This document shows, piece after piece, positions 3,548 to 45,031 of a DNA stretch of 64,000 nt. Made by a program: the position numbers and the translations under genes. The stretch spans positions 1 to 64,000 of the forward strand of contig NZ_CAJHBR010000018.1 of the NCBI RefSeq assembly GCF_904846695.1. Direction: 5' to 3'. The stretch is from Psychrobacter urativorans. Lineage in GTDB: Bacteria; Pseudomonadota; Gammaproteobacteria; Pseudomonadales; Moraxellaceae. Position 1 is the first letter of the stretch; each line of letters begins with the position of its first letter. The notes below the pieces were generated by a model. It made no database searches, was not told the origin of the DNA, and saw only the letters and a list, made by a program, of their open reading frames with translations.

Positions 3548-3577
3548 CAAAAAAAACACTCAACCAAGTTGAGTGTC
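3548..3577 (-). terminator. Rho-independent terminator of the flavin oxidoreductase gene
   Basis: Stem ACACTCAAC (3556-3564) pairs with GTTGAGTGT (3568-3576) around a three-base loop. The A-run at 3549-3556 gives a T-run on the minus strand, about 40 bases past the stop of the minus-strand gene. The hairpin is almost the same as the one after guaA at 5381. Confidence 0.85.
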
Positions 3578-3615
3578 CTCGCAAAACAGCAAAGCTAATT
3601 AAATAAGCCAAACCA

Positions 3616-5052: not shown

Positions 5053-5371
5053 ATTTTTTCCAATTTAAGCTATAACTTAAGGTCTGTTTGATCTGTCACA
5101 CTGAGTGCTGCTGATAGCTACTGATAGCTACTGATCTATAAAAGCTGTGCTCTAGTGTCAGTGCAGATCGTCAGTAATTAAGTAAAACACACAATAATGC
5201 TGACTATTGCGCCCTTTGTGACCTTTTCTGTTAGCGTATGTTCGATATGATAGGTTACGGTAACTCAGCTAAACCTAGTTTTAAGATAGTATTAACACCA
5301 TAGGCTTTAGTCGCATTTAATAAACACACAATATGATGGCGAAGAGCTAAATTGGCTATAGAAATTTTAAG
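5053..5371. other. Intergenic region upstream of the oxidoreductase gene
   Basis: No gene seen. It holds a short tandem repeat (CTGATAGCTA, two full copies from 5111) and AT-rich sequence that presumably carries the promoter of the leftward oxidoreductase gene. No further motif is recognised. Confidence 0.4.
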
Positions 5372-5406
5372 AAAAAAAAACACCCAACCAAGTTGAGTGC
5401 TTTTTT
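5372..5406 (-). terminator. Terminator after guaA, possibly bidirectional
   Basis: Stem CACCCAAC (5381-5388) pairs with GTTGAGTG (5392-5399) including one G-T pair. A run of nine A lies on its left and a run of T on its right, so it can end transcription on both strands. It sits about 27 bases past the guaA stop. Confidence 0.85.
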
Positions 5407-5432
5407 ATTTTAGCTAAAGGCTAGGTAGAGAA

Positions 5433-7040: not shown

Positions 7041-7415
7041 AAATAGATGTCCATCAATAGATAAAATTGGTGGCCTATTTTAACAAGTTTCGGGGTAGTA
7101 ATGGCGGTTGGTATGATAATTAATAATGACTATTTTTATTATTGTTTTAATTATACCTTTCATGGTTACTTAGAAATAAAGGCTTTGAACAATAACCGCT
7201 TGTAGTAAATAACTTTTAGCTATTGATTTAAATGTAATTTTTGCAAATAGTAGTAAAATAATAGTCGAATCTAACTACACAATAGTGCTAAAGTGTTAAG
7301 GCAAGTTTAACAGTACCAGCTGACCATTATGCTGTTACTTCAAGTGCTCTGACCTCTATCAGCCTTTAGCCGAATCGACTAAAGTGCCTAATACCTTTAA
7401 AAAGGATGAACGATA
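7041..7415. other. Divergent promoter region between guaA and the autotransporter gene
   Basis: AT-rich non-coding stretch of about 375 bases between two genes that point away from each other, so both promoters must lie here. The rightward gene has a clear ribosome binding site (AAAGGATGAACGATA before the ATG at 7416). No terminator or repeat of note. Confidence 0.4.
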
Positions 7416-9485: not shown

Positions 9486-9576
9486 GTAGCTGATAGACAT
9501 CTAGTTAATCCCTAATGTTTAGGTAGATGGGGTTAACTGGATATAACTAATCTCGATAAAACTAGCCAAAATTAAT

Positions 9577-9603
9577 AAAAACCCTGCACTTGCAGGGTTT
9601 TTG
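9577..9603 (+). terminator. Terminator after the autotransporter gene
   Basis: AAAACCCTGCA pairs with TGCAGGGTTTT around a two-base loop, with A and T runs on the two sides. It lies between converging genes and may serve both. Confidence 0.9.
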
Positions 9604-9662
9604 CTAGTAGCCGAAGCAGTATTAAGTAATGGGCAATCAGTATGAAAGTCTTATCTGCCTGA

Positions 9663-10823
9663 TTAAGATTTTATGTCATTAAAGGCAGCATGAATACGAT
9701 TTAGACCCTCTATCAGCAGCGCTTGAGGGCAAGCTACATTCAAGCGCATTTTAAACTGCCCCTCATTACCGTATTGGATACCTGCACTGAGCTCGACTCT
9801 CGCAGCGCGAAGCTGGTCATAAAGAGTCTGATCGTCTTGAGCATACGCTGAGCAGTCGAGCCATATTAGATAGGAGGCCTCTGGGCGCATAACTCTAATA
9901 TCAGGCAGATGCTGCGCTAAAAAATCACAGACTAAGTCTATATTGGCTTCAATATACGTTAACGCCTGCGCCAACCATTCATCGCCTTGCTCATAAGCAC
10001 TACGCATGACCTCATAAGCAAATAGATTTAGATCATGCTCGTCACTTAAGCGCTGCTGTTGGCTGATTTGTTCAATTAAGGCCTCGTCTTTAGCAAAGAT
10101 CATTGAGCCTTTAATGCCGGCCACATTAAAAGTTTTAGTCATTGAGGTGATGCTCACTACTTTGTGCTCGTAGTCTTTTGCTAGGCCTAAAAACGGTATA
10201 AACTCATGACCGCTCAAGGTCAAATCTTGATGAATCTCGTCACTAACAATCGCTACATCGTGCTTTTTGCAAATCAAAAGCAGCGACTCAAGCTCATCTA
10301 CTGTCCATACCCGTCCGCCTGGGTTATGCGGATTACATAGCAGAAAAAGCTTCACTTTATGCGCCACTATCTTAGCTTCGATATCAGCCAAGTCTAGCTG
10401 ATAGCGTCCTTCTCCTTCTTTTAGGGCAGAGAGGATAAGCTGTCGCCCGTTATCGTCAACTTTAGTCATAAAAGGTGCGTAGATAGGGTCATTCACTAGC
10501 ACGGCGTCCCCTACCTCAGTGAATATTCTCATCATCAGCGCCAAACTTGGTACTACGCCGGGGGAGAACAAGATATGTTGTTTATTCAGTGCTAACCCAT
10601 AACGATTGCCATGCCAGTTAATAATTGACTCGTATAAAGCTTCAGTAGGTCTGGTATAGCCCAATACCCCATGCTGCCCCACTTGTTCAATGGTCTTTAG
10701 AATGGGCTGCGCTGCTCTAAAATCCATATCCGCCACCCATAGCGCAATGGTGTCATCGCTATAGTGCCATTTCAGCGATCCGGTATTACGTCGGTCGATT
10801 ATCTCATCAAAGTTATACAACAT
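9663..10823 (-). CDS. PatB/MalY-type PLP aminotransferase (putative cystathionine beta-lyase)
   Basis: A 386-residue fold-type I PLP enzyme of the MalY/PatB group, which cleaves the C-S bond of cystathionine or related compounds. The N-terminal segment NFDEIIDRRNTGSLKW...ALWVADMDF is typical of the group. CNPHNPGGRVW holds the conserved Asn, SDEIHQDL the Asp that pairs with PLP, and SMTKTFNVAGIKGS holds the Schiff-base lysine K230. The C-terminus has FKMRLNVACP, with the Arg that holds the substrate carboxylate. It stands alone. Exact substrate (cystathionine, cysteine or S-alkyl cysteine) is not visible from sequence. Confidence 0.88.
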   Translation of the reverse strand: MLYNFDEIIDRRNTGSLKWHYSDDTIALWVADMDFRAAQPILKTIEQVGQHGVLGYTRPTEALYESIINWHGNRYGLALNKQHILFSPGVVPSLALMMRIFTEVGDAVLVNDPIYAPFMTKVDDNGRQLILSALKEGEGRYQLDLADIEAKIVAHKVKLFLLCNPHNPGGRVWTVDELESLLLICKKHDVAIVSDEIHQDLTLSGHEFIPFLGLAKDYEHKVVSITSMTKTFNVAGIKGSMIFAKDEALIEQISQQQRLSDEHDLNLFAYEVMRSAYEQGDEWLAQALTYIEANIDLVCDFLAQHLPDIRVMRPEASYLIWLDCSAYAQDDQTLYDQLRAARVELSAGIQYGNEGQFKMRLNVACPQALLIEGLNRIHAAFNDIKS

Positions 10824-11689
10824 AAGTGTTCTCTTAGCGGAGGGTTTTAGCTGATTACAGGCGCAAGTTTAAACAGGTTTATAGGATAAACCTATAAAGC
10901 AAAATGATAGTTTAGGGTATAGGATGACTGCGCTGATTACCAGTGGCTTTGTTGGGGTTACGTAGAGGTGTTATGGAATAACTAAAGAGGTCATTTATGT
11001 GCGGGTACTATAGATTTGGGATGAGGATATAGTAGCTAATCCTGCCATCTGCTATTATCTGCTTAGCCAATGGCGTGCGGACTAAAGTAGCTGGTAGCGT
11101 TGCTGTTACCTCGACACCCCTTCCAGCCACAGTCTCGCATCACCATTGTCGTCAGCAGGATAGCCGCTACTGTCAAGGCTAAACCGCTTTTTGAAGCAAC
11201 CTTTGTAGATATATTAAAATTTAGCAGATTCTTTGTGGACTTTGTAGGCTGTGGCTTTAGCCCAGCAACAGCTAGGCAAAAACACTGTTTTAGGTGATGA
11301 ACATCAGTTTAGCTAACAGCTGATAGGTCATGCTAAATAATATAAATAACAGCGCTGAGCTAAAAGCGCCAGCCTACGGTAGAGCTAGCCTTATAGCCCC
11401 AACAATGCATTAAAACTAAAACCTAGATATAGTAGGTTGGCGGAGCTTGCGACCCCCAACAGCTTGCTATGCAATAACCATAATTTGCCAGCATAAGAGA
11501 GTCTGTGAATATTTCTGTGCTTGCAGCATACCTCAAGACTCAAATTTCAGTGCCGCTTTTTAACTTTTCTAGTGCCAAGGCTAAACCGACTCAAAGAGTT
11601 ATACTAGTTATCTATGAGTTCCACTCCGTTGCACCACACGCTACCACATCGTTTAAACATAAATTCTGCTGTATATAGACAGAACAGGA
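10824..11689. other. Long intergenic stretch without a convincing gene
   Basis: About 870 bases with no open frame that looks coding; the longest (11100-11297, 65 codons) has no family resemblance. It holds an imperfect hairpin GTTGG(...)CCAAC at 11436-11460 and two copies of a short phrase CAAGGCTAAACCG (11175 and 11574). It may be debris of deleted genes or repeat elements. Confidence 0.4.
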
Positions 11690-12703
11690 TTATTTTTTTA
11701 AAGTTTTTAGGGTAGCTAACTGTTGACAGGCAGTTTGATGACCACTTTGACAAGCAAGGTTATACCAATACTTCGCCTTGCTATAATCATGTGGTTGAGT
11801 ATCATCCTGATGATATAGCAGCCCTAGATGATATTGAGCCTCCATAAAGCCCTGTTCTGCTGCTTTTTGATACCAAAATATCGCCATCGCATTATTATTT
11901 TCAGTACGTTTAAAAGTCCCAGCTAGATCAGTTTGCGCTTTGGCATTGCCTTCCATCGCTAATATTTCCACGGATTTCTTATCGGTAATAGGTTTATCAG
12001 CTGATTGACGCTGGTTGAATTGAATGACTTTAGCAGATGCTGGGGGAAAGCTTTGCTTTGCAGCTTCATAATACCAATAAAAGGCTTGCTCATAATCTTG
12101 TTCAACTCCACGACCCTTTTCATACGCTAGCCCAAGGTTAAACTGTGCTTCTTTATAACTTTGCTCCGCTGCCAGTCGTAACAACATTACCGCTTTTTGA
12201 TGGTCTTGCTCAACCCCTTGCCCATAAGTGTACATGGTGGCTAATAAGTTTTGCGCTTTTGCATTATCTTTATTAATTAGTAGGTCTAACCATTGTTTCG
12301 CCTTACTATAGTCTTGGGGAACGCCATAGCCACTATAGTATATTAGTGCCATCATCTCTTGTGCATATTCATAGTCTTGCCGCGCAGAGGCTTCAAACCA
12401 CTTAAATGCCGCTTCGTAATCCCTTTCTACCTCTATCCCATTAAAATACATATGAGCAAGATCATATTCTGCCTCCTTATCTCCCGATTGCGCTTTTGCT
12501 TTAATTTGGCTAAGCTCAGAAGTTGAGTTCTCACTAGTGACCATAACCTTATTAGCTAATGACGACTGCGTCTGGTTGACTGATTTAGGTACTAATAATG
12601 ATATTGATTGTGTCGATGGCTTTGACTGACAGCCGGTGAATAAAACGGTCATCAAAGTAGCAGATACCATAAGAGAAGCTGAAGAGAGTCGCGATGAAAA
12701 CAT
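11690..12703 (-). CDS. Sel1-like (TPR-type) repeat lipoprotein
   Basis: A 337-residue protein. The N-terminus is a lipoprotein signal with the lipobox LFTGC, so the mature protein should be lipid-anchored at Cys25. From about residue 65 come repeated 36-residue Sel1 units with the pattern AxxxLAxMYxxGxGVxxDYxxAxxW, for example AEYDLAHMYFNGIEVERDY and AQFNLGLAYEKGRGVEQDY, interrupted by a less regular segment near residues 225-250 and resuming to the end. Sel1 repeats form alpha-solenoids that bind proteins. In Moraxellaceae such genes are multi-copy and their partners are mostly unknown. Confidence 0.85.
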   Translation of the reverse strand: MFSSRLSSASLMVSATLMTVLFTGCQSKPSTQSISLLVPKSVNQTQSSLANKVMVTSENSTSELSQIKAKAQSGDKEAEYDLAHMYFNGIEVERDYEAAFKWFEASARQDYEYAQEMMALIYYSGYGVPQDYSKAKQWLDLLINKDNAKAQNLLATMYTYGQGVEQDHQKAVMLLRLAAEQSYKEAQFNLGLAYEKGRGVEQDYEQAFYWYYEAAKQSFPPASAKVIQFNQRQSADKPITDKKSVEILAMEGNAKAQTDLAGTFKRTENNNAMAIFWYQKAAEQGFMEAQYHLGLLYHQDDTQPHDYSKAKYWYNLACQSGHQTACQQLATLKTLKK

Positions 12704-12767
12704 AAATTTCCCTTAATATTTAAACACTTTATTTGTAGATATTTATATTCTTAACTTAATCTATCTA

Positions 12768-13001
12768 TCATCTTGTGATCGCAATATTTATCAAAAGCTC
12801 TAATGTATTAGGATCAAAACTATCAGTTATTTTCAACATTTTAGTATTGCCTGTATTAGCGCTGATATCAATACCAGTCTTAAAAACTTCAAAGCCTACT
12901 AATTGAGCAAATGTTAAGGAGAAATTATTTTTACCACCCTTAAAGATTAATTGTTTCCTAACGTCATCAATCTTATTTGTTATTTTACAAATAAAAGCCA
13001 T
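12768..13001 (-). CDS. Small hypothetical protein (77 aa)
   Basis: Not recognised. The frame has an ATG preceded by AAGGG at a good distance and encodes 77 residues without signal peptide or membrane segment. It lies just upstream of, and on the same strand as, the Sel1 lipoprotein gene, with a 64-base gap, so the two may share a transcript. The codon use is AT-rich compared with the neighbouring crotonase gene. It could be a genuine small protein or a remnant of a longer gene. Confidence 0.4.
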   Translation of the reverse strand: MAFICKITNKIDDVRKQLIFKGGKNNFSLTFAQLVGFEVFKTGIDISANTGNTKMLKITDSFDPNTLELLINIAITR

Positions 13002-13096
13002 GAAAATACCCTTATAAAATCAACCAGCTAGGTACGAGTTTATTCTTAATTCAACGGTATTTTTCCAAATAATTTACTATCAGAAAAACTTACCAT

Positions 13097-13885
13097 TTAT
13101 TTCCCAACAAACTCAGCCTGACGCCTCTCAACCATAGCCATAACCCCTTCTTTAGCATCCTCAGAGTGAAACAATGGCGGCAAAAAGCTATGAATATTCG
13201 CCATAGCGACTGCTGCGCCATTACGACTGGCATCTTGCGCTGAAGATAGTAATGCTTGCACGCCAAGCGGTGCCGACTGGCAAATCTCTTTTGCTATAGT
13301 CAGTGCACGCTCATATTCTTCACCATTAGCCACCACCTCACTGACCAGATTAAGCTTATCAGCGGTCTGCGCATTAAAGGGCTTACCCGTTAATAGATAC
13401 GGCATGGCTTTTTGCCAGCCAGCAGCCGCTACAAAGCGTACGGTTGCGCCACCAAAAGGCATAATGCCACGCTGAACTTCCATTTGGGCAAAGTTGCAGT
13501 TGTCACTGGCGATCACCACATCGCTATTGAGCATCAGCTCGATGCCCGCGGTAAAGCAAGTGCCTTGCACGGCTACAACGATAGGTTTAGTACGTAATTT
13601 GCCACTAATACCCCACGGATCGACTTGGTCATCAGCGAATTCAAACACCCCTTTATCTAGCTTATCTTGCAGCTCCATCAGATCAAGACCAGCAGTGAAA
13701 TGCTCACCATGAGCGAAGATTAAGGCACAGCGCAGCTCGCTATCATGGTCATAGCGGGTCAATGCTTCAGACAACTGCGCAATCATATGGCTATCAAAAG
13801 CATTGCGTTTATCAGCACGATTAAAGCCAATCAAACAGATGTGATCTTGCACTTCATAACTGATGCGCTCGTTTACCGTAGTCAT
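13097..13885 (-). CDS. Enoyl-CoA hydratase/isomerase (crotonase) family protein
   Basis: A 262-residue crotonase-fold protein. The oxyanion-hole segments HGEHFTAGLDLMELQ (about residues 55-69) and GTCFTAGIELMLNSDVVIA (about 109-127) are clear, as is the segment VQRGIMPFGGATVRFVAAAGW. GTCFTAGIEL carries a Glu at a position often catalytic in the hydratases, but the second catalytic Glu is not obvious, so the reaction (hydratase, isomerase or thioesterase-like) stays open. The ribosome binding site AAGGACGATAAT precedes the ATG. No beta-oxidation genes are adjacent. Confidence 0.85.
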   Translation of the reverse strand: MTTVNERISYEVQDHICLIGFNRADKRNAFDSHMIAQLSEALTRYDHDSELRCALIFAHGEHFTAGLDLMELQDKLDKGVFEFADDQVDPWGISGKLRTKPIVVAVQGTCFTAGIELMLNSDVVIASDNCNFAQMEVQRGIMPFGGATVRFVAAAGWQKAMPYLLTGKPFNAQTADKLNLVSEVVANGEEYERALTIAKEICQSAPLGVQALLSSAQDASRNGAAVAMANIHSFLPPLFHSEDAKEGVMAMVERRQAEFVGK

Positions 13886-14103
13886 ATTATCGTCCTTGAG
13901 AGTTTATTATTGTGCTGTACAAAGCGGTTAGCGATCTGCTCTGCTCTTGATAAATCTAGTTTTAATATAGCTAGCCCCGCAGCACAACGCAAGTGGCTTA
14001 ATTGTGTACAGCATTCACCTCTATAAGCTCACGATATCTGCGTAGTTTGGCGCTAAATCTGCTACACTTGCTCGTTATCTCCCTATATCGTAAGCCCGTT
14101 ACT

Positions 14104-15111
14104 ATGACAACTCCACACAGAAATAGATCTCCAGCCTCAATCAAAAAACTAGGCCAGCTACATCCGCGTAATGCGCATCAAGGTCGCTATGACTTTGACG
14201 CTTTAACTCGCGCTTTACCTGAGTTAGCTGACCATACCATCACCAACCCTAATGGCGAGCCGACGATTAACTTCTCGGATCATCAAGCAGTACGTACCCT
14301 AAACAGAGCACTATTAGCGAATTTTTATGGCGTTAAGTTTTGGGATATTCCAGAAGGTTATCTGTGTCCGCCTATCCCAGGTCGTGCCGACTATATTCAC
14401 TATGTCGCCGACTTATTAGCGCAGACCACGCATATTAATGAAGACAATACCCCACCAACAGGCAAGCAGATTCATGTGCTCGATATCGGTACTGGTGCTA
14501 GTGCTATCTATCCGATCGTTGGTAGCCAAAGCTACGGCTGGCGCTTCACGGCTAGTGATATCGACCCTATATCAGTGAATACTGCTGCGCTTATTTGTGA
14601 GACTAATCCTAAGTTAAAAGGCGCAGTGAAAGTTAAACTGCAGCCTAATCCTAAGAAGTTATTCGCTGGTATTATTGGTCGCCAAGATTACTTTGACTTA
14701 GTAGTTTGCAACCCTCCTTTCCATGCTTCAATGGAAGAAGCGGTAGAAGCCAATAGCCGTAAGCAACATAACTTGCAAAGACATCGTGGTAAAAACGAAA
14801 ACGAACAGGTCAGTCGTAGCTCAAGCAAATCGGGCAATGCAGCACAAAACCTGAACTTCGGCGGTCAGCATAAAGAGCTGTGGAGTGAAGGTGGCGAGAT
14901 TACTTTTTTGACTAATATGGCCAAAGAGAGTCAGAGCTTTGCTGAGCATGTTGGCTGGTTTACTACTTTGGTTTCTAAGTCTGAAAACGTTAAGCCCTTG
15001 CAGCTGTTACTAAGTCAGCTTAATGTTGCTCAAACACGCATTATTGAGATGAGCCAAGGTCAAAAGAACACGCGCATATTGGCATGGCGCTTTAATAGCG
15101 ATGACGAGTAA
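14104..15111 (+). CDS. rlmF: 23S rRNA (adenine(1618)-N(6))-methyltransferase
   Basis: Methylates N6 of A1618 in 23S rRNA using S-adenosylmethionine. The protein (335 residues from this start) has the family opening [16 protein letters not shown], the SAM-binding segment [17 protein letters not shown] and the N6-adenine catalytic motif [11 protein letters not shown]-terminal segments [18 protein letters not shown] and GWFTTLVSK also match RlmF. The frame is open upstream to 14002, but the family begins close to the ATG at 14104 (MTTPHRNRS), which I chose. A Ser/Asn-rich insert after the NPPF motif looks like a flexible loop. Confidence 0.92.
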
Positions 15112-15182
15112 TAGTTAAACTTAGTATTGATGATCAGTATTGATAATCGGTACTGATAATCCGTACTAATTATTCATAAAAA
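15112..15182. repeat. Degenerate short tandem repeat
   Basis: Three imperfect copies of a 16-17 base unit (AGTATTGATAATC-like, then GGTACTGATAATC, then CGTACTAAT) directly after the rlmF stop. Origin and role are unclear. Confidence 0.5.
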
Positions 15183-15198
15183 GGTTTCACATGAAACA
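15183..15198 (-). promoter_or_regulatory. parS-like site
   Basis: GGTTTCACATGAAACA differs from the parS consensus TGTTTCACGTGAAACA at 2 positions. It is the reverse orientation of the CATGTG-centred form. Outermost of the set on the left. Confidence 0.6.
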
Positions 15199-15297
15199 CT
15201 AACTTTGCTATTTATCCTTGCTAGTACTGTTGCTACTGGTATTGCTACTGTTGTTATTAATAGGATTGATAGTTTATGATAAATCCTTATTAAAAGT

Positions 15298-15313
15298 AGT
15301 TTCACGTGAAACA
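15298..15313. promoter_or_regulatory. parS-like site
   Basis: AGTTTCACGTGAAACA matches the parS consensus at 15 of 16 positions with the palindromic CACGTG centre. It lies next to the rlmF terminator. Confidence 0.75.
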
Positions 15314-15315
15314 TA

Positions 15316-15350
15316 AACACCGTCTTGAATGTCAAGACGGTGTTTTTTAT
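15316..15350 (+). terminator. Terminator on the rlmF side
   Basis: ACACCGTCTTGA pairs with TCAAGACGGTGT around a three-base loop and is followed by six T. It serves the rightward rlmF transcript. Confidence 0.88.
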
Positions 15351-15419
15351 GGCGCTATTTATAATGCTTTTTATGGCACTGTTTATACTATTAGTTACGC
15401 TATTATCCATAGTGCTAAG

Positions 15420-16031
15420 CTAGCTAAATAACATTACTTTGAACCCGATAGCGATAAGCACTACCCCACCTAATATCTCTGCTTTATCTTCTAGCCAAGT
15501 ACCAGAGCGCTTACCTAGATAAACTCCAAACCAGCTAAACCCAGCGGTGACTAGCGCTATTATTAGACAAGACAACCAAGCATTGAGTGCCAATAGATTC
15601 AGGGTGAAGCCCGCTGCCATAGCATCAATACTAGTAGCGATGGCTAAAGTAAACATAGTGCGATGATTGATCACGCTAAGCATTTGCTTATTATTACTAT
15701 AGCTAACGCTACCCTCAAGGCTTTGAGCATCGTCTATAGCCTCTTGATCATCAGGTTTTAAGGCTTCATACAGCATTTTACCACCTAGAGCAATTAGGAT
15801 AAAACCACCTATCCAAGGAGCAGCCGAGGCTAGCCAGCCTAATAATGCCGCCCCTAGTAAATAACCAATGAGGGGCATGACGCCTTGAGCAATACCAAAG
15901 TATAAGGCTGAAATAAGCGCTAAGCGCAAAATATAAGACTGAGTTTGCTTTGGTGATTTTGCACCTAGTCCTATAGCTACGGCAAAGGCATCCATCGCTA
16001 AAGCAATAGCGAGTAAAATTACTTCGATCAT
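15420..16031 (-). CDS. mntP: Manganese efflux pump MntP
   Basis: A small polytopic inner-membrane protein of about 203 residues with six predicted membrane segments. It opens with [20 protein letters not shown], matching the first helix of MntP (MDAFA with the metal-binding Asp). A second internal repeat has [14 protein letters not shown], the counterpart Asp motif. Such proteins export Mn(II). I prefer the ATG at 16031 to the GTG at 16043 because the family starts just before the first helix. I see no yybP-ykoY manganese riboswitch upstream, although many mntP genes have one. Confidence 0.92.
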
Positions 16032-16112
16032 ATTACTAGTCACTTATTAATTAAGAGTTGTTATGTTGCTGGGTGAACTGCTTAAGCTTTACTAGAGAAC
16101 TCTCGTCAATAA

Positions 16113-16128
16113 GGTTTCATGTGAAACA
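16113..16128 (+). promoter_or_regulatory. parS-like site
   Basis: GGTTTCATGTGAAACA, CATGTG-centred, 2 mismatches to the consensus, in the gap upstream of mntP. Confidence 0.6.
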
Positions 16129-16297
16129 TTAAAATGACTTTATATAGTGAACGAGTATTCATCACTAGTTGAGATTTTTAGAAGCCTATCCCTGTAGAAG
16201 GCGCTACTTTTAAAGAGATATATTTTTAGAAAGAAAGTTATTTACAAGCCTGAAGCTCGACAAGCCTAAAAGCTTACTTGACCGAAAAAATCACCAG

Positions 16298-17800
16298 CTA
16301 ATCACTTATTCGCTGCCAAAAATCACTTCTTTCATTATACTTTTGACTTAACAGCTCAGTATATTGCTGATGGGTAGCGAGACTATTATAACCATCTGTA
16401 GATTTATTAATAGTGCTATCTAAAGGCGATAAGCGCTTGTAATAGCGGGCAGCATAACCGTAAGCTCTACTGCGATCATTAGTCAAAATATCATCGATTA
16501 AGCTGCGATAGATAATCATTTGAATGATAGCCGTGTCTTCTGGCAAGCCCTTTAACAGCTGGGTCAAGGTTTCATAATGGATGTCTGCAAACTCATGATG
16601 ACGAGTAATTGCTACTTGATTAGCTAGCTTGATCTCCCCTATTTCTAGTAACAGCAAAATTGCCGTTATGATATCTTGTTGATCCTCAGCCAGCTTATAA
16701 GCTTTTTTGCGCCAGCCTGCTTGCTCGGCTGGGCTAGCTATAGCCATGATTGCCTGTAGCCTTTTAGCAGACGACTGCAACTCGAATACTTCGCCAAGCA
16801 CTTTTAGTTGCGCCTTACTGTCACCTTGCTGTTGATATATTTGGCTCAGCCAGTCCAAACGTTTTATCGCATCTTGCTGAGCCTTACTCTGCCAGTCATG
16901 GTTTAGATATTCTAGGGCTAGCTCATAGGCTTGATGATCTATCATAAAGCTAACTAGCCCATTTAGTTGTTGCGGGCTCAAAGGTTGCTGAGGATAGATA
17001 GTCCGATAAACTGCTATAAATAATGCCACATCTCCCAAAGCTTGAGCTACCCCTAACAGAGCCGTTTCGGTCTTTAGCTTTTCTTGATGGTTAGCTCGAT
17101 CATGACCATAAGATAGTGGTATTCGCGGATTAGCTGCAGTGTTGATAGTATTCTCAGCACTGCCTTTACCCTTGTTTTCCGTAAATAAACTTTGATAGTA
17201 GTGTAGATAGTCGTCGATTATTCCTCGTATTTCCAACTGTGATAACAGCTGCTTAAGCCCTGCCATTAGCGCATCTTTAAAGCCGTAATCGTTATCGTCG
17301 ATTAAATTTTTGACCTTTGTTTGCCATGCTTGACTCAGAATATCTTGCTCATCGACTGGCAAAATCTGTTTTTGCTGGTTATAACAATCCCTAGCAACCA
17401 TCAGCCAACTCTGCGCCAGATTGCTATATATCTCTCCTATTTCACCACTAGCATCATCACAACGCTGCAAGCTCGTATTACTCGATTCAATAAATAACTC
17501 TAGTAGCTGTAGACAAGTCTCAGCTTGCTCTGGATAGAGACTCATAATGTCACTGGCTAGATACTGCAGCTCGGTGGCAAACTCACTGACTTTCCAATGA
17601 TCTATATATTTATGTCGTCTGTTAAGCCCTTTTAAAGTAGTAGTCAGCTTCTTTATTAGCTTGGGTTTATCCGACTGTAATAATAGCCGCTCTATCTTTT
17701 TATCCAATAACTTATCTACCCCTTGCACTTCAGCGATAAAATTGACCAAAGTTGCTTTAGGAAGTTGCGCTAGACAGTGCTTTTGTTGCAAATTTAGCAT
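16298..17800 (-). CDS. Uncharacterised protein, DUF6880-like helical repeat protein
   Basis: About 500 residues, almost entirely alpha-helical in composition, with no signal peptide or membrane segment. The N-terminal pattern LVNFIAEVQGVDKLLDKKIERLLL...LIKKLTTTLKGLNRRHKYIDHWKVSEFA and the following DASGEIGEIYSNLAQSWL remind me of the DUF6880 family, whose function is unknown; this is from memory. The C-terminal half looks like TPR-type helical pairs. The frame is open to 17827, but the ATG at 17800 has AGGGG eight bases upstream and is the better start. A 146-bp miniature transposon ends 61 bases upstream of it and could supply or disturb its promoter. Confidence 0.6.
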   Translation of the reverse strand: MLNLQQKHCLAQLPKATLVNFIAEVQGVDKLLDKKIERLLLQSDKPKLIKKLTTTLKGLNRRHKYIDHWKVSEFATELQYLASDIMSLYPEQAETCLQLLELFIESSNTSLQRCDDASGEIGEIYSNLAQSWLMVARDCYNQQKQILPVDEQDILSQAWQTKVKNLIDDNDYGFKDALMAGLKQLLSQLEIRGIIDDYLHYYQSLFTENKGKGSAENTINTAANPRIPLSYGHDRANHQEKLKTETALLGVAQALGDVALFIAVYRTIYPQQPLSPQQLNGLVSFMIDHQAYELALEYLNHDWQSKAQQDAIKRLDWLSQIYQQQGDSKAQLKVLGEVFELQSSAKRLQAIMAIASPAEQAGWRKKAYKLAEDQQDIITAILLLLEIGEIKLANQVAITRHHEFADIHYETLTQLLKGLPEDTAIIQMIIYRSLIDDILTNDRSRAYGYAARYYKRLSPLDSTINKSTDGYNSLATHQQYTELLSQKYNERSDFWQRISD

Positions 17801-17860
17801 GATAGAACCCCTACTAGTTGTCCACAATGTCGTTGATAGCTTGTTTAATAACTTATTTGA

Positions 17861-18006
17861 TATAGTCAGTTCATTATAAAAACTCTACAGCGAGATTGAG
17901 ATCAGTTTTTTGTAGCCTCTGTCAGCCTAGGCACAGCAAGCCAAAAAAACTCACCATAGTCTCGCATTATAAAGTGATGTATCTATTCTATTTGATATCG
18001 ACTATA
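17861..18006 (+). mobile_element. 146-bp miniature inverted-repeat element (MITE), copy 1
   Basis: Begins TATAGTCAGTTCATT and ends ATCGACTATA, so the terminal inverted repeat is TATAGTC and includes a TA that may be the target duplication. Aligned by hand, the reverse complement of 48749-48894 matches it over the full 146 bases with about 21 differences and no gaps. The left end in reverse complement (GAACTGACTATA) is the same as the end of the IS630-type element at the window start. It carries no reading frame. The layout recalls Correia-type elements of Neisseria, which also start TATAG and target TA. Confidence 0.8.
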
Positions 18007-18154
18007 GCTTTTAACCATAAAAAAGTACTACTAAGCTCAGCTGTTTAGCGACTATCAATAGGGGGTAGCAACTAATAAGTTATTACTAACAGCGCATTAT
18101 TGCCATCTGCATAGGTTATTTTAAAGCAACTAGCGGGACAAGTTATTATTATAG

Positions 18155-18170
18155 TGTTTCATGTGAAACA
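18155..18170 (+). promoter_or_regulatory. parS-like site
   Basis: TGTTTCATGTGAAACA, one mismatch to the parS consensus. It touches the gyrB terminator stem. Confidence 0.75.
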
Positions 18171-18203
18171 AAAAAGCCACCTTGCGAACAAGATGGCTTT
18201 TTA
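18169..18203 (-). terminator. Terminator after gyrB
   Basis: AAAAAGCCACCTTG (18171-18184) pairs with CAAGATGGCTTTTT (18189-18202) around a four-base loop. The A-run gives the T tract for the leftward gyrB transcript; it lies 36 bases past the stop. Confidence 0.9.
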
Positions 18204-18238
18204 TTATTAAGAGACTCTTCGAGCTTTATAGCTATCCG

Positions 18239-21440
<3,202 letters not shown>

Positions 21441-38616: not shown

Positions 38617-38685
38617 TAATTTATAGTTATAGCTCCCTTTAATAAGCCAACACAGATGCCCAATAGGCATAGGAAATCAAGTAAT

Positions 38686-40230
38686 ATGAGACAAACCACG
38701 TCTAATAGCCCTAGAAATAATAAAAACAAGCCATCAAGTAACTTAAAAATGACTGGTAGCGTACGTGTACGTGTGATTCGAACTTTATTAGCTATCCAAA
38801 ATGGTCAGTCATTATCTAGTGTATTAGATCCGCTACTCAATAGTCTGCACGAGGGCGATAAAGGTTTTGCTCACGCATTATTATTGACCACTTTGCGCCA
38901 GTGGTATGCGCTCGAGCGCCTACTAGATAGTCTGGCTGACAACCCTATTGATGAAAAAGAAGTACGCACGACTATTCAAGTAGGTCTGACCCAGCTGCTG
39001 TATTTACAAGTGGCTGATCATGCGGCTATTCATGAAACCGTCGAAGCGGCAAAAGAGATCGAGTTTGCTCATGCTACGGGTCTAGTAAATGCTATTTTGC
39101 GCAAAGTGGCCAAGAACCCAAGCAAGTTCCGTAAAAAGTGTGATAAAAAGCACAGCTTGCCTAATTGGCTTGCTTATCAGCTTAAGCAAGATTGGAGTGC
39201 TGAATATGACGATCTTATGCAAGGTCTGCGCCAACCTGCGCCAATGTTTTTACGAGTAAATTCTGCAGTTACTGATGTTAGTATCTATCAGCAGAGCTTG
39301 TTTGATGCTGATATCAGCGCTGATTTGGTAGAGATAACCAGTGCTTTTCAACTGCCTAATCAGCAGCAGACTACTAAGGTTAATACCTCAGTGTTACGTT
39401 TAGAGCAAACCACAGCAGTGAGCGGTTTACCTTCCTTCGCTGAAGGGGTGGTTAGTATTCAAGATATGTATGCTCAATTGGCGGCACCTTTGATCAATCA
39501 AGCATTTATCAACAAGGTGAGCACTGAGAGCAATGTGGATGATTTGCAGATTTTAGATGCCTGCGCTGCTCCTGGCGGTAAGCTTGCCCATTGGTTAGAG
39601 CTATTAACTACTGATAGTCAATCACCATTGTTTCATGTGAAACATACTGATGCTAATGATACTAATGATAGCACCGATCAGAAATACAGCATTAAACTAA
39701 CCGCTATCGATAATGAAGCGCCGCGTATTACTCGTATTTATGAGAACCTAGAGCGTCTAAATCTAGAGCAGTCAGAGCAAGTCAAACTGGATATTGTTTG
39801 TGCTGATGCTACGCGCTGGCAAGGAGCGAACAAGCAAGCCGATAACAATGCTCCAGTATTTGACGCCATCTTGCTAGATGCCCCTTGTACCGCTACTGGT
39901 GTTATTCGTCGTCATCCTGATATCAGTATCTTACGAACCGAGGAAGACGTAGAACAAACCGCGCGTTTGCAAGCTGAGATCTTGGATAATCTATGGCCAC
40001 AATTAAAAGTTGGTGGCTATTTGTTATACATCACTTGCTCCATATTAAAGCAAGAAAACGTTGAGCAGATCCAAGAATTTATGAGACATCATACGGATGC
40101 TAGTGCTATCGAATTCACTGCAGACTGTAATTGGGGCATTGCACAAGAAGTTGGTCGTCAGTGTCTGCCAATAGATAGCGACAGCGGTGACGGCTTTTAT
40201 TATGCGTTGTTGATGAAGACGACAGGATAA
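38686..40230 (+). CDS. rsmB: 16S rRNA (cytosine(967)-C(5))-methyltransferase
   Basis: Methylates C967 of 16S rRNA. The N-terminal NusB-like domain includes SVRVRVIRTLLAIQNGQSL and HAAIHETVEAAKE. The Rossmann domain has the SAM motif ILDACAAPGGKLAHWLE, LLDAPCTATGVIRRHPDI with one catalytic Cys, and ITCSI with the other. The frame is open to an ATG at 38656; I prefer 38686, which has AGGA upstream, but this is unsure. An Asp/Thr-rich insert after the SAM motif contains a parS-like site that encodes LFHVKH. Downstream, the usual trkA is missing and an unrelated AT-rich gene begins. Confidence 0.94.
   Translation: MRQTTSNSPRNNKNKPSSNLKMTGSVRVRVIRTLLAIQNGQSLSSVLDPLLNSLHEGDKGFAHALLLTTLRQWYALERLLDSLADNPIDEKEVRTTIQVGLTQLLYLQVADHAAIHETVEAAKEIEFAHATGLVNAILRKVAKNPSKFRKKCDKKHSLPNWLAYQLKQDWSAEYDDLMQGLRQPAPMFLRVNSAVTDVSIYQQSLFDADISADLVEITSAFQLPNQQQTTKVNTSVLRLEQTTAVSGLPSFAEGVVSIQDMYAQLAAPLINQAFINKVSTESNVDDLQILDACAAPGGKLAHWLELLTTDSQSPLFHVKHTDANDTNDSTDQKYSIKLTAIDNEAPRITRIYENLERLNLEQSEQVKLDIVCADATRWQGANKQADNNAPVFDAILLDAPCTATGVIRRHPDISILRTEEDVEQTARLQAEILDNLWPQLKVGGYLLYITCSILKQENVEQIQEFMRHHTDASAIEFTADCNWGIAQEVGRQCLPIDSDSGDGFYYALLMKTTG
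39629..39644 (+). promoter_or_regulatory. parS-like site within rsmB
   Basis: TGTTTCATGTGAAACA in a variable insert of RsmB, encoding LFHVKH. Confidence 0.75.
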
Positions 40231-40284
40231 ATAGGTTCAAAAAGTCCGCAAGCTTGATGAGTTTTAAAGGAGTACTAAATTTAA

Positions 40285-43200
40285 ATGGCTTACGAACTTA
40301 GTGATTTATTGAATGATGATCGTTTAGAAAGATTATTTTCATCAGAAGGACTTCCTTGTGCATTCCAACTCTGGGTGCTTCAAATTCAACACCAAAACGT
40401 TATAGAAAATCGCGTAATATATGGTCGATTACTTCCATATAGTTTTTCTAACAGCAGATGGTCATTTAGTGATGACGACAGTAATTATCAGTCATTTGGA
40501 GAATCTAAAGCTAGTGTTACTCAATTAAACCTATATATAGATAGTTCACTATGTTCTAGCTTACTCACTATGATAATTGACGGAAAAAATCTTGATGATA
40601 TAAGTACAGCGCTTGATTTTACGTTTCAGTCCAAGCTACAAAATAGGTTTGGAGATGTCAGTCTTTCGAATTCTTATGTAGGTTTTCGGCCTGTAGCTTA
40701 TCTTTTAAATCGGGATGCACATGTGTCAGATACCCTAGCTAGTCCACTTGGAAATGCAGGAGCGTTTAGTGCATCCATTTTTCAAGGAGATAAACAAGGT
40801 TTATTCTTATATGATGAAGTGTATGATAAAAACCTTACTTCTATGATAATAACCCGATTAAATTCCGACACTGGAATGGATTTTGGTAAAAAAGACCTAG
40901 AAAGGATCGGAGATATTGAATTACTTGTATTCCCAACTATCGATGATCAGGAAAATAGCCTTTTCGCAGTTGAATGGACTGAAGAAAAGAATATAGAAGT
41001 TAAACTCAACGCCAGTCAGCTTCCTAGCTTTAATAATTTTAGCTTTATTTTGACTTTAATGAATAACAATCAAGTGTTCTATTCGTGTCGTGCAACAGCT
41101 AATAACATAGAAAACCTATTTGAATATGTTTTCAAACTTGATAATAATTTAAAAAATGTGGTTGATAGCTCTAGAGTGGATATTTATGCTTCGAAAGGAG
41201 ATGAAACTGAAGAGGGTTATCTTTGTTGTAGTTGGAAGATTTATTATTGTCGTGAAATTAGCTTTCAGTTAACCGCTATGGAAAATAGTTCTAGTAGGGT
41301 GGAGTTTGACTGGCTTGAAAGAACAACTAATCCTAGTATGGGAATACGTGTAAGAAATGCTTTATCATTTTCAGGTGCGAACTATGATTCTAATAACGTA
41401 ATAGGCGAGCGTGAACTCGATAAATGGGTACCTGAAAATAGAGCTATGAACTCATTGTTCAAAAAATTATATCCACCTACATCTAATGGAAGGTTTTTTT
41501 TACGCTGGGGTCAAAGCAATGGTGAGGGGCGTTTACAGTTTGTTGAGTGGTTTAAAGAAGTTCTAAAGAAAAATGAGAAATACCAAGTTACAATATTTGA
41601 TCCCTATTTTGAAGATGCTGGTTCAGCTCTACTAACTTTATATGCTTCACGAGGTGCTGAGTACATAGTATTCCGAACAGTACCAGAATTTAAAGATGGA
41701 AAAGTTAAACAGGGTCTTGATAACTTATTAGAAAACTGTGAGCATAATAGAGCAAGGTTAAGTAGGAGCAAAGTTAAAATATATGGATTGAAAGAAAAGC
41801 GTTTGCATGACCGTTATATTTTAATTATAGGGAGTGACGGCCTTCCAGTTGAGGGTTATCATTTATCTAACTCCTTCCAAAGCGTAGCTCAAAACTTTCC
41901 TTTGTTAGTAACACCAATTCCTATAGATGTTTTATATCAAGTTAAGCAATACACATTTGACCTCATTCAAGAGGCTAATGAGTCGTCAAATGATAATAAT
42001 ATTACACTACTGTTTGATACAGAAGACTCTTCAAAGGAGTTAATAAATTTATATAATCCATTAAGCATCCTAGAAAATAGGCTATCAGGAAATCTTTTTA
42101 GTGTGTGGTTCGAAGAGTCATCGTTAAAAGGCTTATATGGCAATGAACTTAAGAAAGAACTTCAAAGTTTAGGACTTATCGAAGATGTTTCGCTTCATAG
42201 TTTGACAGCGAACGGACTATACAATTGTATTGATAATATGCAAGAAGACTTTACTAACTTCTATTCACAGTGGAATATGATAGGTCATATTCTAGCAAAC
42301 TCTCACATCATTGATTCAAACCTAGATGAAATCTCTTCAAAAACTCAGTTTTTATTATTTCTATCAGAGTTTTTATCTGATTCTTTCAAGATGAAGTTTA
42401 CTGACGATAGTAAAAATGTTGCAGTAATTGATCCAAGCTACCTTACTAAATCTCTAAAAGAGCTAACTAAAAACCCAATACAGATTGACTATTTTAATAG
42501 ACCATCAAACAATGAAATTCTATCTTGGTCTGATTTTTATGCTATTAAGTTATTATGGCAATATAGACCAGAATGCCTTCTTCTGATTATTAGTAAACAA
42601 ACTAATATTTTGGAAGTGAATCCTAAATCAAATCATATCATTAGGTTATCATTGCTAGAGCAAGTTCTATATGAAATTTCTTTAGCTGTAAATTTTGAAC
42701 AAGTTTCAAATTATCAAACGAGTCTATTAATTATAAGTAATACAGGTATCATTAACTGGTTTGGATGGATCATGCTAGAACAAAATCTCAAATCTTTAAA
42801 CAATTTTGATTTGAACTCCAGTTTCTTACATATATTTTCTTACGAAGAAAAGATTCAATTTGTAGGATGGAGTTTGAATCGAAATGCTTTGAGCTTTGAG
42901 TCAAAGCTTTATTATGAAAAACTTGTAGGTGAATTGCATAAATTCCTACCTGAACAAGTACCTGATAATAGTATGCAAAATCTTATTGATTCCGCTAAGG
43001 GTTATCATCAACAGCTTAAATGGTCTGAACCTTGGTTGTTTATAGATATAATTGATCCATTATTATTAGCTAACCGTGTTAACTGTGATTATATATGTGA
43101 GATTTGGATTCAAGAGCTAATAGCTCAATTTGAAAATACAGATGAAAATGAATCAGTAATATTTTCACCAGATAGAGAACAGGTAACCACGCAAGTATGT

Positions 43201-43533
43201 GCACACCTATGGGTTAACAGTAGTCAAGATAATAAAGATAAGTGTATTAAAAATCTTCATAAGATTATTTTAAAGCAAAAAAGGATTATACAAAGACCTC
43301 TAGCTAAATCAATAAATTGGAATAAATGGGATAAGGCACTCAAAATATCTCTCTGGATCTTAATACTTACCAAATTATTCGAAAATAATTTAGCGACTAT
43401 GCAGGGTTTAATTCCGAAAAACTTAGAAGATTTGATAAACGAATCTCATATTTTGGCGTTGACTAGACCTTCTACAGAATGGTTGCCCAATAGTGATTTA
43501 TTTGCATATTTAGAAAGTATAGCTTCAACTTGA
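40285..43533 (+). CDS. Large protein with a PLD-like HDR module; VPA1262-family-like, putative defence protein
   Basis: A 1082-residue soluble protein, visibly richer in A+T than its neighbours, standing alone between rsmB and thrC. From memory, its N-terminal half (RPVAYLLNRDAHVSD, DTGMDFG, LGDIELLVFP types of motif) resembles the VPA1262 family, found mainly in variable regions and suspected of phage defence; no search was run. Residues about 415-560 look like a phospholipase-D-type domain: VTIFDPYFEDAG (Asp439), EYIVFRTVP, then LHDRYILIIG (His508) and GYHLSNSFQ. HDR with a following Ser/Asn motif is a known variant of the HxK motif in PLD-like nucleases. The C-terminal half (about 560-1082) is helical, with no motif I know. 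RBS AAAGGAGTAC lies 13 bases upstream. Function unproven. Confidence 0.6.
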   Translation: MAYELSDLLNDDRLERLFSSEGLPCAFQLWVLQIQHQNVIENRVIYGRLLPYSFSNSRWSFSDDDSNYQSFGESKASVTQLNLYIDSSLCSSLLTMIIDGKNLDDISTALDFTFQSKLQNRFGDVSLSNSYVGFRPVAYLLNRDAHVSDTLASPLGNAGAFSASIFQGDKQGLFLYDEVYDKNLTSMIITRLNSDTGMDFGKKDLERIGDIELLVFPTIDDQENSLFAVEWTEEKNIEVKLNASQLPSFNNFSFILTLMNNNQVFYSCRATANNIENLFEYVFKLDNNLKNVVDSSRVDIYASKGDETEEGYLCCSWKIYYCREISFQLTAMENSSSRVEFDWLERTTNPSMGIRVRNALSFSGANYDSNNVIGERELDKWVPENRAMNSLFKKLYPPTSNGRFFLRWGQSNGEGRLQFVEWFKEVLKKNEKYQVTIFDPYFEDAGSALLTLYASRGAEYIVFRTVPEFKDGKVKQGLDNLLENCEHNRARLSRSKVKIYGLKEKRLHDRYILIIGSDGLPVEGYHLSNSFQSVAQNFPLLVTPIPIDVLYQVKQYTFDLIQEANESSNDNNITLLFDTEDSSKELINLYNPLSILENRLSGNLFSVWFEESSLKGLYGNELKKELQSLGLIEDVSLHSLTANGLYNCIDNMQEDFTNFYSQWNMIGHILANSHIIDSNLDEISSKTQFLLFLSEFLSDSFKMKFTDDSKNVAVIDPSYLTKSLKELTKNPIQIDYFNRPSNNEILSWSDFYAIKLLWQYRPECLLLIISKQTNILEVNPKSNHIIRLSLLEQVLYEISLAVNFEQVSNYQTSLLIISNTGIINWFGWIMLEQNLKSLNNFDLNSSFLHIFSYEEKIQFVGWSLNRNALSFESKLYYEKLVGELHKFLPEQVPDNSMQNLIDSAKGYHQQLKWSEPWLFIDIIDPLLLANRVNCDYICEIWIQELIAQFENTDENESVIFSPDREQVTTQVCAHLWVNSSQDNKDKCIKNLHKIILKQKRIIQRPLAKSINWNKWDKALKISLWILILTKLFENNLATMQGLIPKNLEDLINESHILALTRPSTEWLPNSDLFAYLESIAST

Positions 43534-43609: not shown

Positions 43610-45031
43610 ATGAAATATATTAGTACTCGTGGTCAGACTGAACCGATGGATTTTAGTGATGTGCTCCTTATGGGACTTGCGCCTGATGGTGGCTTGATGT
43701 TACCTGAGCACTATCCAAATGTTGATGAGGCTACTTTAGAAGAGTGGCGCTCGCTGAGTTATCCAGAGTTAGCATTAGCCATTATGCAGCGCTTTGCTAC
43801 TGATATTCCTTATGCCGATTTAAAAGATATTATTGAGCGTACTTATACTGCTGAAGTATTTGGCGATGCTGAGATTGTACCTGTACGTAAGCTTGAAGAT
43901 GACTTGTATATTTTAGGCTTATCTAATGGTCCAACGCTCGCGTTCAAAGATGTGGCGATGCAGTTTTTGGGTAATGCCTTTGAGTATGTACTCAAGCGTC
44001 AAAACGCGCGTATCACTATTATTGGCGCAACTAGTGGCGATACAGGTAGTGCTGCTGAATATGCACTGCGTGGTAAAGACAACATCGAAGTATTTATGCT
44101 GTCGCCGCATGGCAAGATGAGTGAGTTTCAGCGCGCGCAGATGTATAGCCTGACAGACGCTAATATCCATAATATCGCCATCGATGGTATGTTTGATGAT
44201 TGCCAAGATATCGTCAAAGCTTTGCAACAAGATGCTGAGTTCAAAGCGGCTTATAACTTAGGTACCGTCAACTCCATCAACTGGGGCCGGATACTGGCAC
44301 AGATTGTCTATTACTTTAAAGCCTACTTTGCCGTGACTAGTAGCAACGAAGAGCAGGTTAGTTTTAGCGTGCCCTCAGGTAATTTTGGTAATATTTGTGC
44401 CGGTCATATCGCTCGTGAAATGGGCTTACCGATTGGACGCTTAATCGTCGCTACTAACGAGAACGACGTCCTTAATGACTTCTTTAATCAAGGCGCTTAT
44501 AAGCCGCGCGCAACAGATAAAACTTACATTACTTCTAGCCCGTCTATGGATATTTCTAAGGCCTCTAACTTTGAACGTTTCGTTTATCTATTGCTAGATA
44601 AAGACAGCGCTCGCGTTCATGAGCTATTTGAAGGCGTAAAAGCAGGGCAAGGCTTTGACTTATCTGATTTAGCACAAGTAGTTAATAGCCGTTATGGTTT
44701 TGCTGCCGGTAAGTCTACTCATGCCGATCGCTTACAAACCATAAAATCCTTGTATCAACAGTATGGTGAATTGGTCGATCCACATACGGCAGATGGTATC
44801 AAAGTCGCTAAAGAGCTACAGCAAGCAGGTGAAACTATCATCTGTGCCGAAACAGCACTGCCTGTTAAGTTCGCAGACACCATCATCGAAGCTGTCGGCC
44901 CTATAGAGATTGCTCGACCAAAGCACACCGAAGGTTTAGAAGCTCTAGAACAGCATGTGGTTATTTTAGATAACAAGGCAGAGCTAGTAGCTGAGCAAAT
45001 TCGTCAGCAAGTTACTGCTAACCCTGCATAG
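43610..45031 (+). CDS. thrC: Threonine synthase
   Basis: Converts O-phosphohomoserine to threonine, PLP-dependent. The protein (473 residues from this ATG) opens MKYISTRGQTEPMDFSDVLLMGLAPDGGL, has the PLP lysine in PTLAFKDVAMQF, and has GATSGDTGSAAEYAL and VNSINWGRI, all typical of the long-form threonine synthase. AGGACAAAAC precedes ATG 43610, so the TTG at 43595 is not the start. hom usually lies upstream in relatives; here the HDR-protein gene does. Confidence 0.96.
   Translation: MKYISTRGQTEPMDFSDVLLMGLAPDGGLMLPEHYPNVDEATLEEWRSLSYPELALAIMQRFATDIPYADLKDIIERTYTAEVFGDAEIVPVRKLEDDLYILGLSNGPTLAFKDVAMQFLGNAFEYVLKRQNARITIIGATSGDTGSAAEYALRGKDNIEVFMLSPHGKMSEFQRAQMYSLTDANIHNIAIDGMFDDCQDIVKALQQDAEFKAAYNLGTVNSINWGRILAQIVYYFKAYFAVTSSNEEQVSFSVPSGNFGNICAGHIAREMGLPIGRLIVATNENDVLNDFFNQGAYKPRATDKTYITSSPSMDISKASNFERFVYLLLDKDSARVHELFEGVKAGQGFDLSDLAQVVNSRYGFAAGKSTHADRLQTIKSLYQQYGELVDPHTADGIKVAKELQQAGETIICAETALPVKFADTIIEAVGPIEIARPKHTEGLEALEQHVVILDNKAELVAEQIRQQVTANPA

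Follow-up and report, generated by a model that had tools for sequence, protein, structure and literature searches.

A stand-alone VPA1262-family protein in Psychrobacter urativorans: a probable defence effector with a variant phospholipase-D motif and with fused and split relatives

The stretch of DNA analysed here (hereafter the window) comprises 64,000 nucleotides of the Psychrobacter urativorans contig NZ_CAJHBR010000018.1. Between the genes rsmB and thrC it holds an open reading frame (ORF) at 40285–43533 on the forward strand, with 1082 codons from an ATG and no internal stop, which encodes a protein of the VPA1262 family. The predicted domains are, in order, an N-terminal domain, an immunoglobulin (Ig)-like sandwich, a phospholipase-D (PLD) domain with a His-Asp-Arg (HDR) motif, and a helical C-terminal half. 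I interpret the gene as a horizontally acquired, stand-alone, fused effector of HDR-type PLD, which most likely serves in defence against phages (or against mobile elements). This interpretation is based on the family match, the PLD fold, the invariant site, the patchy and mobile distribution of the family, and the presence of split relatives, encoded by sets of two or three genes, near defence genes. From these I infer nuclease activity, a trigger, dimerisation, and phage as the target.

In a search of the NCBIfam models, the protein matches VPA1262_fam (NF040699) with 959.1 bits (cut-off 325, E-value 2.7e-288) over residues 26–1026. The profile is covered end to end (positions 1–1026 of 1026), which makes the protein a member of the family, and the model of the VPA1262 N-terminal domain (NF040700) matches residues 77–563. 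An earlier interpretation made from the letters alone (the sequence-only reading) had seen a resemblance to VPA1262 in the N-terminal half, and no nameable domain in the flanking halves. The resemblance is real, but the match spans the whole protein, and an unclassified C-terminal half is rejected because the family model covers it. No Pfam family was found for the protein at E-values up to 1, and a sequence search of the PDB found no solved relatives. In the literature and databases searched (supplements outside the search), the VPA1262 family has a name only: neither a function nor a solved structure was found for it, and no assignment to defence; the identifiers NF040699 and NF040700 were not found in that literature, and the main text of DefensePredictor mentions neither VPA1262 nor PLD. 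The name presumably derives from the Vibrio parahaemolyticus gene VPA1262, which the available part of one report places in the genomic island VPaI-6, with 24 of 41 tested isolates positive (PMC1464126), and which a second paper also names (PMC3656152).

An AlphaFold2 model of the protein, computed from 67 alignment rows, has a mean predicted local distance difference test score (pLDDT) of 86.2 and a predicted template modelling score of 0.75. The sequence-only reading had placed a PLD fold at residues 415–560, and would have been abandoned had a confident structure lacked it; the model has this fold, at about residues 398–578. This part matches many PLD structures with Z-scores from 13.1 to 10, among them SauUSI (7clg, 12.5), NucT (6ehi, 12.5), Nuc (1byr, 11.5) and BfiI (2c1l, 10.5), as well as phosphatidylserine synthase (11.8), polyphosphate kinase (11.2) and phospholipase D (9.9). 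Foldseek alone gave weak matches, the best to polyphosphate kinase (E-value 1.7e-3), with BfiI at 4.7e-3, and a library of viral structures gave no match at E-values under 0.001. The presence of phosphatidylserine synthase, polyphosphate kinase and phospholipase D among the matches fits an enzyme acting on a substrate other than nucleic acid, such as a phospholipid or a nucleotide, which would still serve defence by damaging membranes or degrading a signal. The substrate cannot be read from a common fold. NucT, Nuc, BfiI and SauUSI, all nucleases, give matches at least as good, and I consider this alternative unlikely.

Outside the PLD part, residues 1–345 folded alone reached a pLDDT of 90.8, with the Ig/fibronectin-III-like sandwich at 217–323 (Z-scores up to 8.8), and in the full model everything from about residue 590 on is helical. 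The listed matches of this model to solved structures cover the Ig-like sandwich only, and not residues 20–215, which does not imply that the fold of the latter is novel. Foldseek also gave weak matches to beta-catenin and karyopherins (E-values 0.01–0.05), in a table without residue ranges; these probably fall on the helical half of the model, which may be a solenoid.

To identify conserved residues, relatives of the fused form were collected by scanning genome contigs with two patterns, one like GYHLSNSxQ and one like YPLLxTPIP. This gave 87 relatives; the 80 best were retained, and with five plasmid loci, one viral contig and one Escherichia coli locus added, 87 loci were viewed. A closed ORF with a match is present in 85 of these (none in L028 and L037). 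Ten ORFs were dropped as shorter, and the 75 of at least 950 amino acids were aligned with the window protein, to give 76 rows. Residues P136, S153, D204, R207, E212, W381, S400, W422, D439, P440, H508, D509, R510, G524, S528, N529, S530, Q532, P539, L541, T543 and W862 are invariant in this alignment, and the list is unchanged on subsets of 72 and 67 rows. Conservation within the motifs that the scan patterns contain is in part built in, and the scan would miss relatives lacking these motifs; the invariance of D439, P440, H508, D509 and R510 is independent of the patterns. The motifs FDPYFED (with D439, just past the first PLD strand), LHDRYILIIG (with H508) and GYHLSNS (residues 524–530) are where the sequence-only reading had located them. 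They do not make up the canonical HKD motif, HxKx4Dx6GSxN: every row has HxR, and the fused form shows no conservation where HKD has its Asp, so the motif is a variant. Residues P136, S153, D204, R207 and E212 are invariant within a domain for which no fold was matched, and could form a second functional site.

The family is mobile and patchily distributed. Only one of 105 Psychrobacter genomes, that of the window itself, exceeds the family cut-off, as do 3 of 390 genomes of the order, the window's own counted. Genes of the fused form occur on plasmids (five loci), and the E. coli copy lies in an integrative element at guaA. A blastn search with the Enterobacter fused gene matched at least 2 of 5426 E. 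coli genomes, a lower bound given its low sensitivity; the same program with split genes of Klebsiella found no match in E. coli genomes. Identical proteins are present in Pseudidiomarina piscicola and Marinobacter fuscus, with upstream genes in common. In a quick tree (LG+G4, SH-aLRT support only), the window protein groups with those of Pseudoalteromonas, Enterobacter, two Acinetobacter and an Alteromonadaceae bacterium, with 98% support. In 58 of 81 loci the G+C content (GC) of the gene is below that of its flanks; the deficit exceeds 0.03 in 34 loci, and in 12 the gene is higher by more than 0.03. Horizontal acquisition is the best reading of the window copy.

Further observations were made on these loci. 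The Pseudidiomarina and Marinobacter loci (L039 and L042) and two Idiomarina loci (L058 and L066) have the same upstream genes at near-equal spacing; the protein is identical in the first two and close in L058, while L066 has a 615-amino-acid ORF near a contig end. These four probably represent one recently transferred element. Fused genes recur downstream of guaA in L029, L032, L034, L043 and L111, directly so in four (223–479 bp), and four of the five proteins group in the tree, L034 being the one that does not. L111 is the copy within the integrative element, from E. coli VCSW7; there a divergent hypothetical gene for 1304 amino acids (15178–19092), the start of which looks like an alpha/beta hydrolase by eye, adjoins the VPA1262 gene. 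In four other loci the gene is spread over several frames, from pseudogenes or sequencing errors (L068, 9929–13272; L078, 9714–13081; L059, 386–3791; L048, 10001–13338). A phage gene was considered as the identity of the window gene and rejected, with no match in 50,697 phage records and one relative in viral contigs.

Two other Psychrobacter genomes match the family over part of the model only, with proteins of 548 and 522 amino acids that consist of the N-terminal and PLD domains (N/PLD proteins). In one (L106) the N/PLD gene overlaps a gene for 505 amino acids, and in the other (L107) it overlaps a gene for 224 amino acids, after which comes one for 684. Plasmid searches with the proteins of L106, L107 and Klebsiella gave 14 distinct records, of which 12 were taken, the same-species duplicates H9 and H18 being omitted. 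Together with two further genome loci this makes 16 split loci, a survey that leaves aside sub-threshold matches to VPA1262_N with short ORFs (G555, G578, G696, G787, G881, G909 and G910). In all 16, a large ORF of 449–700 amino acids lies downstream on the same strand, directly or past one small ORF, and in 11 the PLD gene and the one after it overlap by 4–35 nucleotides. I distinguish type B, with an N/PLD gene and a partner of 449–700 amino acids (L106, L122, L123, L124, L125, L126, L131, L136, L137, L138 and L139, with an IS630 element between the two genes in L122), and type C, with an N/PLD gene followed by genes for 160–227 and 639–684 amino acids (L107, L127, L128 and L129; in L130 the order is 549, 659 and 260). 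A tblastn search with the L123 partner found seven plasmid records, and these are the seven in which the L106 protein had found the PLD gene.

Profile comparison shows the N/PLD proteins to be homologues of the fused protein, with E-values of 7e-8 for seven of type B and 2.3e-12 for the five of type C. All 16 carry DP[YF] and HDR, and eight (all five of type C, L136, L137 and L139) have HDRx4Dx6GxSxN, that is, the HKD motif with Arg for Lys. Three of these proteins were scanned with Pfam, and those of L107 (L004) and L129 pass the PLDc_2 gathering threshold of 27 bits, with 29.6 and 33.1 bits. The small type-C gene has an HDR motif of its own in three of five loci, and the two small proteins scanned, of L127 and L107, match the PADLOC candidate PDC-S05 (1.3e-5 and 4.2e-5). 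By blastp, seven of the 16 partners form one group and six another, with three singletons, and profile comparison does not connect the first of these groups with type C. Compared with the fused C-terminal half, type-B partners give E-values of 0.006 (seven) and 0.002 (all eleven) at scores of 30 and 35, with reversed controls at 15–20 and hhalign probabilities of 6 and 14%, respectively; type-C partners give no profile match. These profile scores hint weakly that the fused C-terminal half is homologous to the separate type-B partners. Scans of viral contigs with two split proteins found no relative. The series of fused and split genes is newly found here, and it qualifies the sequence-only view of a single-gene system, which is true of the window copy but not of relatives that have the same module in two- and three-gene sets.

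In the neighbourhood of the 85 fused loci, no family occurs in more than seven, and the commonest nameable neighbours, by eye, are integrases, transposases, type I restriction-modification genes and guaA. On plasmids, fused genes are accompanied by type I restriction-modification genes (L008), NERD and VapC genes (L005), an AAA ATPase (L007) or a RecD-like helicase (L009), and in L006 by none of these kinds. Among the split loci, defence-like neighbours, counted without a control set, include a cyclase of the cyclic-oligonucleotide-based anti-phage signalling system (CBASS) with an S-4TM effector (L124), restriction endonucleases and a reverse transcriptase domain (L123), a type I S subunit, DUF4297 and a reverse transcriptase (L126), SIR2 (L130), GmrSD and HEPN/RES (L107), a ThiF/multiubiquitin set (L136), a TPR protein with weak similarity to ATPases (L138), a large DEAD/DEAH helicase with an antitoxin (L125), and a 1314-residue ATP-binding protein (L128). 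L131 is unannotated. The compact island of L107 (genome G058, 802–14286) contains genes that by eye look WYL-like and PP2C-like; it further includes a GmrSD_N protein and, after it, a second one similar in appearance, a transposase, the three-gene HDR-PLD set and the HEPN/RES protein.

Relatives on plasmids and in an integrative element, and the lack of a match in the phage collection, are also what one might see for an addiction or competition gene of mobile elements, for instance one attacking incoming plasmids or other DNA, in place of phage defence. Against this, the window copy is chromosomal, with no integrase adjoining it and no small antitoxin-like gene between rsmB and thrC, and several split copies adjoin anti-phage systems. 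An addiction or competition role is thus distinctly unlikely.

Several results weigh against the interpretation as a defence effector. PADLOC has no family for the window protein at E-values up to 1, nor for the seven large partners and the one N/PLD protein scanned, and the type-B N/PLD protein of L106 (L003), like the window protein, has no Pfam match. Six of the 16 split loci (L106, L122, L127, L129, L137 and L139) have no recognised defence gene nearby. In a comparison of the 82 nearest with the 82 outermost ORFs of 41 fused loci, 221 and 149 PADLOC families were matched, with at most three and five members per family; these counts are of families and not of proteins, and show no clear excess near the gene. 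Because defence-like matches occur in both sets, the neighbourhood is only suggestive of a defence role by association. Finally, the PLD part has its top structural match in BJ-TSA-9 (4urj, Z-score 13.1), a non-catalytic FAM83 protein, and Arg replaces the HKD Lys in the window protein. These last two points, along with the unconserved HKD Asp position, would also suit a PLD-like scaffold that has lost catalysis and serves only to bind a partner or ligand. The His, the Arg and D439 are however invariant in all 76 rows, which come from several phyla, and eight split relatives keep HxRx4Dx6GxSxN; both argue for a working site, and a dead scaffold is very unlikely.

The window gene itself has a composition that supports a foreign origin. 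Its GC (0.326) and third-position GC (0.245) are the lowest in a mechanically selected set of 36 ORFs of 200 or more amino acids in the window, none overlapping another; the medians are 0.437 and 0.385, with standard deviations of 0.026 and 0.046 among the others. This confirms the earlier remark that the gene is richer in AT than both its neighbours, and its placement as a single gene between rsmB and thrC also holds, as only these two adjoin it. It is present in a single copy in its genome. No repeat was seen to frame it, the repeats listed being short and away from its two ends. Promoter-like sites are at chance level (19 against 17.2 ± 3.4), and terminator-like sites slightly above it (4 against 1.6 ± 1.3), all four within the gene. 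The names rsmB and thrC were given in the sequence-only reading and agree with how I read both sequences. A passenger gene without present function, as the single occurrence among 105 genomes might suggest, is hardly credible given 1082 uninterrupted codons that keep every invariant residue.

Features of the window gene and its borders (positions in the window)
Feature	Positions	Strand	Basis
rsmB, left border of the insertion	38656..40230	+	ORF list, genus protein search
AAAGGAG, likely ribosome binding site, 12 bases 5' of the ATG	40266..40272	+	sequence
1082-residue VPA1262-family protein, fused form	40285..43533	+	NF040699 match, AlphaFold2 model
Alpha/beta N-terminal domain (predicted), residues about 20–215, with invariant P136, S153, D204, R207, E212	40342..40929	+	model
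Ig/fibronectin-III-like beta-sandwich (predicted), residues about 216–322	40930..41250	+	weak matches, Z-score up to 8.8
Phospholipase-D fold (predicted), residues 398–578	41476..42018	+	structural matches of the predicted model
D439-P440, 76/76 rows	41599..41604	+	alignment
H508-D509-R510, His-x-Arg replacing the His-x-Lys of HKD, 76/76 rows	41806..41814	+	alignment
Second part of the motif, G524–Q532 (including S528-N529-S530), invariant	41854..41880	+	alignment; in scan pattern, partly circular
All-helical C-terminal half (predicted), residues 585–1082	42037..43530	+	model; split relatives have a downstream gene of similar size
thrC (first ATG past the window gene), right border of the insertion	43613..45031	+	ORF list, genus protein search

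Single-motif PLD nucleases build one active site from two chains, with the His as nucleophile and the Lys binding the phosphate. By analogy, the PLD module of the window protein (residues 398–578) would work as a homodimer, in which two HDR motifs form one active site, and nucleic acid would be cut through a covalent intermediate on H508 while R510 holds the phosphate. This module is constantly accompanied by the alpha/beta and Ig-like domains N-terminal to it, and the N-domain/PLD unit would be the effector. The helical C-terminal half (residues 585–1082) may be the sensor or clamp through which the PLD site is released upon infection; in the split relatives, a separate and exchangeable partner would take its place in sensing or restraint, and in type C two different HDR chains would make up the enzyme. 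It is plausible, though I advance it tentatively, that VPA1262 and its split relatives are a single unrecognised modular immune system, with a constant HDR-PLD effector and exchangeable sensor halves, in some cases heterodimeric. Second halves in this proposal are of at least two sequence families, joined by fusion or encoded by tightly coupled genes.

The rsmB–thrC junction was compared across the genus. Protein searches matched thrC in all 105 genomes and rsmB in 103, and both lie on one contig in 100, the window's own counted; the distance count omits G038, G063 and G082, where they are on different contigs, and G074 and G075, which have no rsmB match. The distance between the matches is at most 300 bp in 72 genomes, 301–1000 bp in 20, 1001–3000 bp in five and above 3000 bp in three, including the window's own (3385 bp). 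In G077, the closest relative by rsmB and thrC (97 and 96% identity), the gap is 119 bp and the junction empty. Conservation of the gene at this place in all relatives, with normal base composition, had been named as an outcome that would speak against the sequence-only reading, and is not what is seen.

Of the 27 other genomes with a gap above 300 bp, 13 were read. G018 has an AT-rich KAP NTPase gene (L095, 595–1941; Pfam KAP_NTPase, 143.8 bits) that resembles QatA with a score far below the QatA cut-off, G101 a closely similar ORF (L096, 588–1934), and G064 an AT-rich gene for a DUF2806 protein (L100, 559–1572). Unnamed genes of 155–211 amino acids are found in G027, G061, G016, G043, G089 and G030, and transposase genes, by eye, in G045 and G056. 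Besides L095, L096 and L100, the loci L092, L094, L101, L102, L108 and L110 are among those with such single genes, which lie on either strand. Because genomes of other species have other AT-rich single genes there, the junction is a place of variable cargo in this genus, with no integrase in sight, and the window gene is one of its occupants.

If the defence interpretation is correct, a family without an assigned function, with members in several phyla and on plasmids and islands, becomes an immune system based on PLD and open to testing, in fused, two-gene and three-gene forms. Together, the exchangeable second half and the invariant His-x-Arg site would allow one to ask how PLD effectors stay off until infection, and whether an HKD site of the Arg type cuts DNA, RNA or something else. 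D439, and D204, R207 and E212 of the N-terminal domain, stand as unexplained invariant residues. The rsmB–thrC junction would in turn be a place to seek single defence-like genes in the genus.

Among known systems, the PLD nucleases Nuc, NucT, BfiI, the NgoAVII R protein and SauUSI (the last an ATP-dependent restriction enzyme) resemble the predicted PLD fold of the window protein, with Z-scores of 9.5–12.5. Nuc and BfiI have one HKD motif per chain, and the window protein likewise has one HDR motif. Unlike those five enzymes, it has HxR where they have HxK, the first PLD strand comes with an invariant DP, and the PLD domain lies between an alpha/beta domain with an Ig-like sandwich on one side and a helical half on the other. 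Members of the VPA1262 family share its invariant residues. The small type-C proteins of L127 and L107 match PDC-S05 around the HDR motif, whereas PADLOC has no model matching the window protein at E-values up to 1. PLD domains within defence systems, as proposed here, are described for Mokosh and Azaca in the available part of one report (PMC10952713), and the available part of another describes PLD joined to YprA-type helicases and other genes in DISARM, Dpd and Druantia III (PMC12458937). The window gene differs from these three systems in having only rsmB and thrC beside it.

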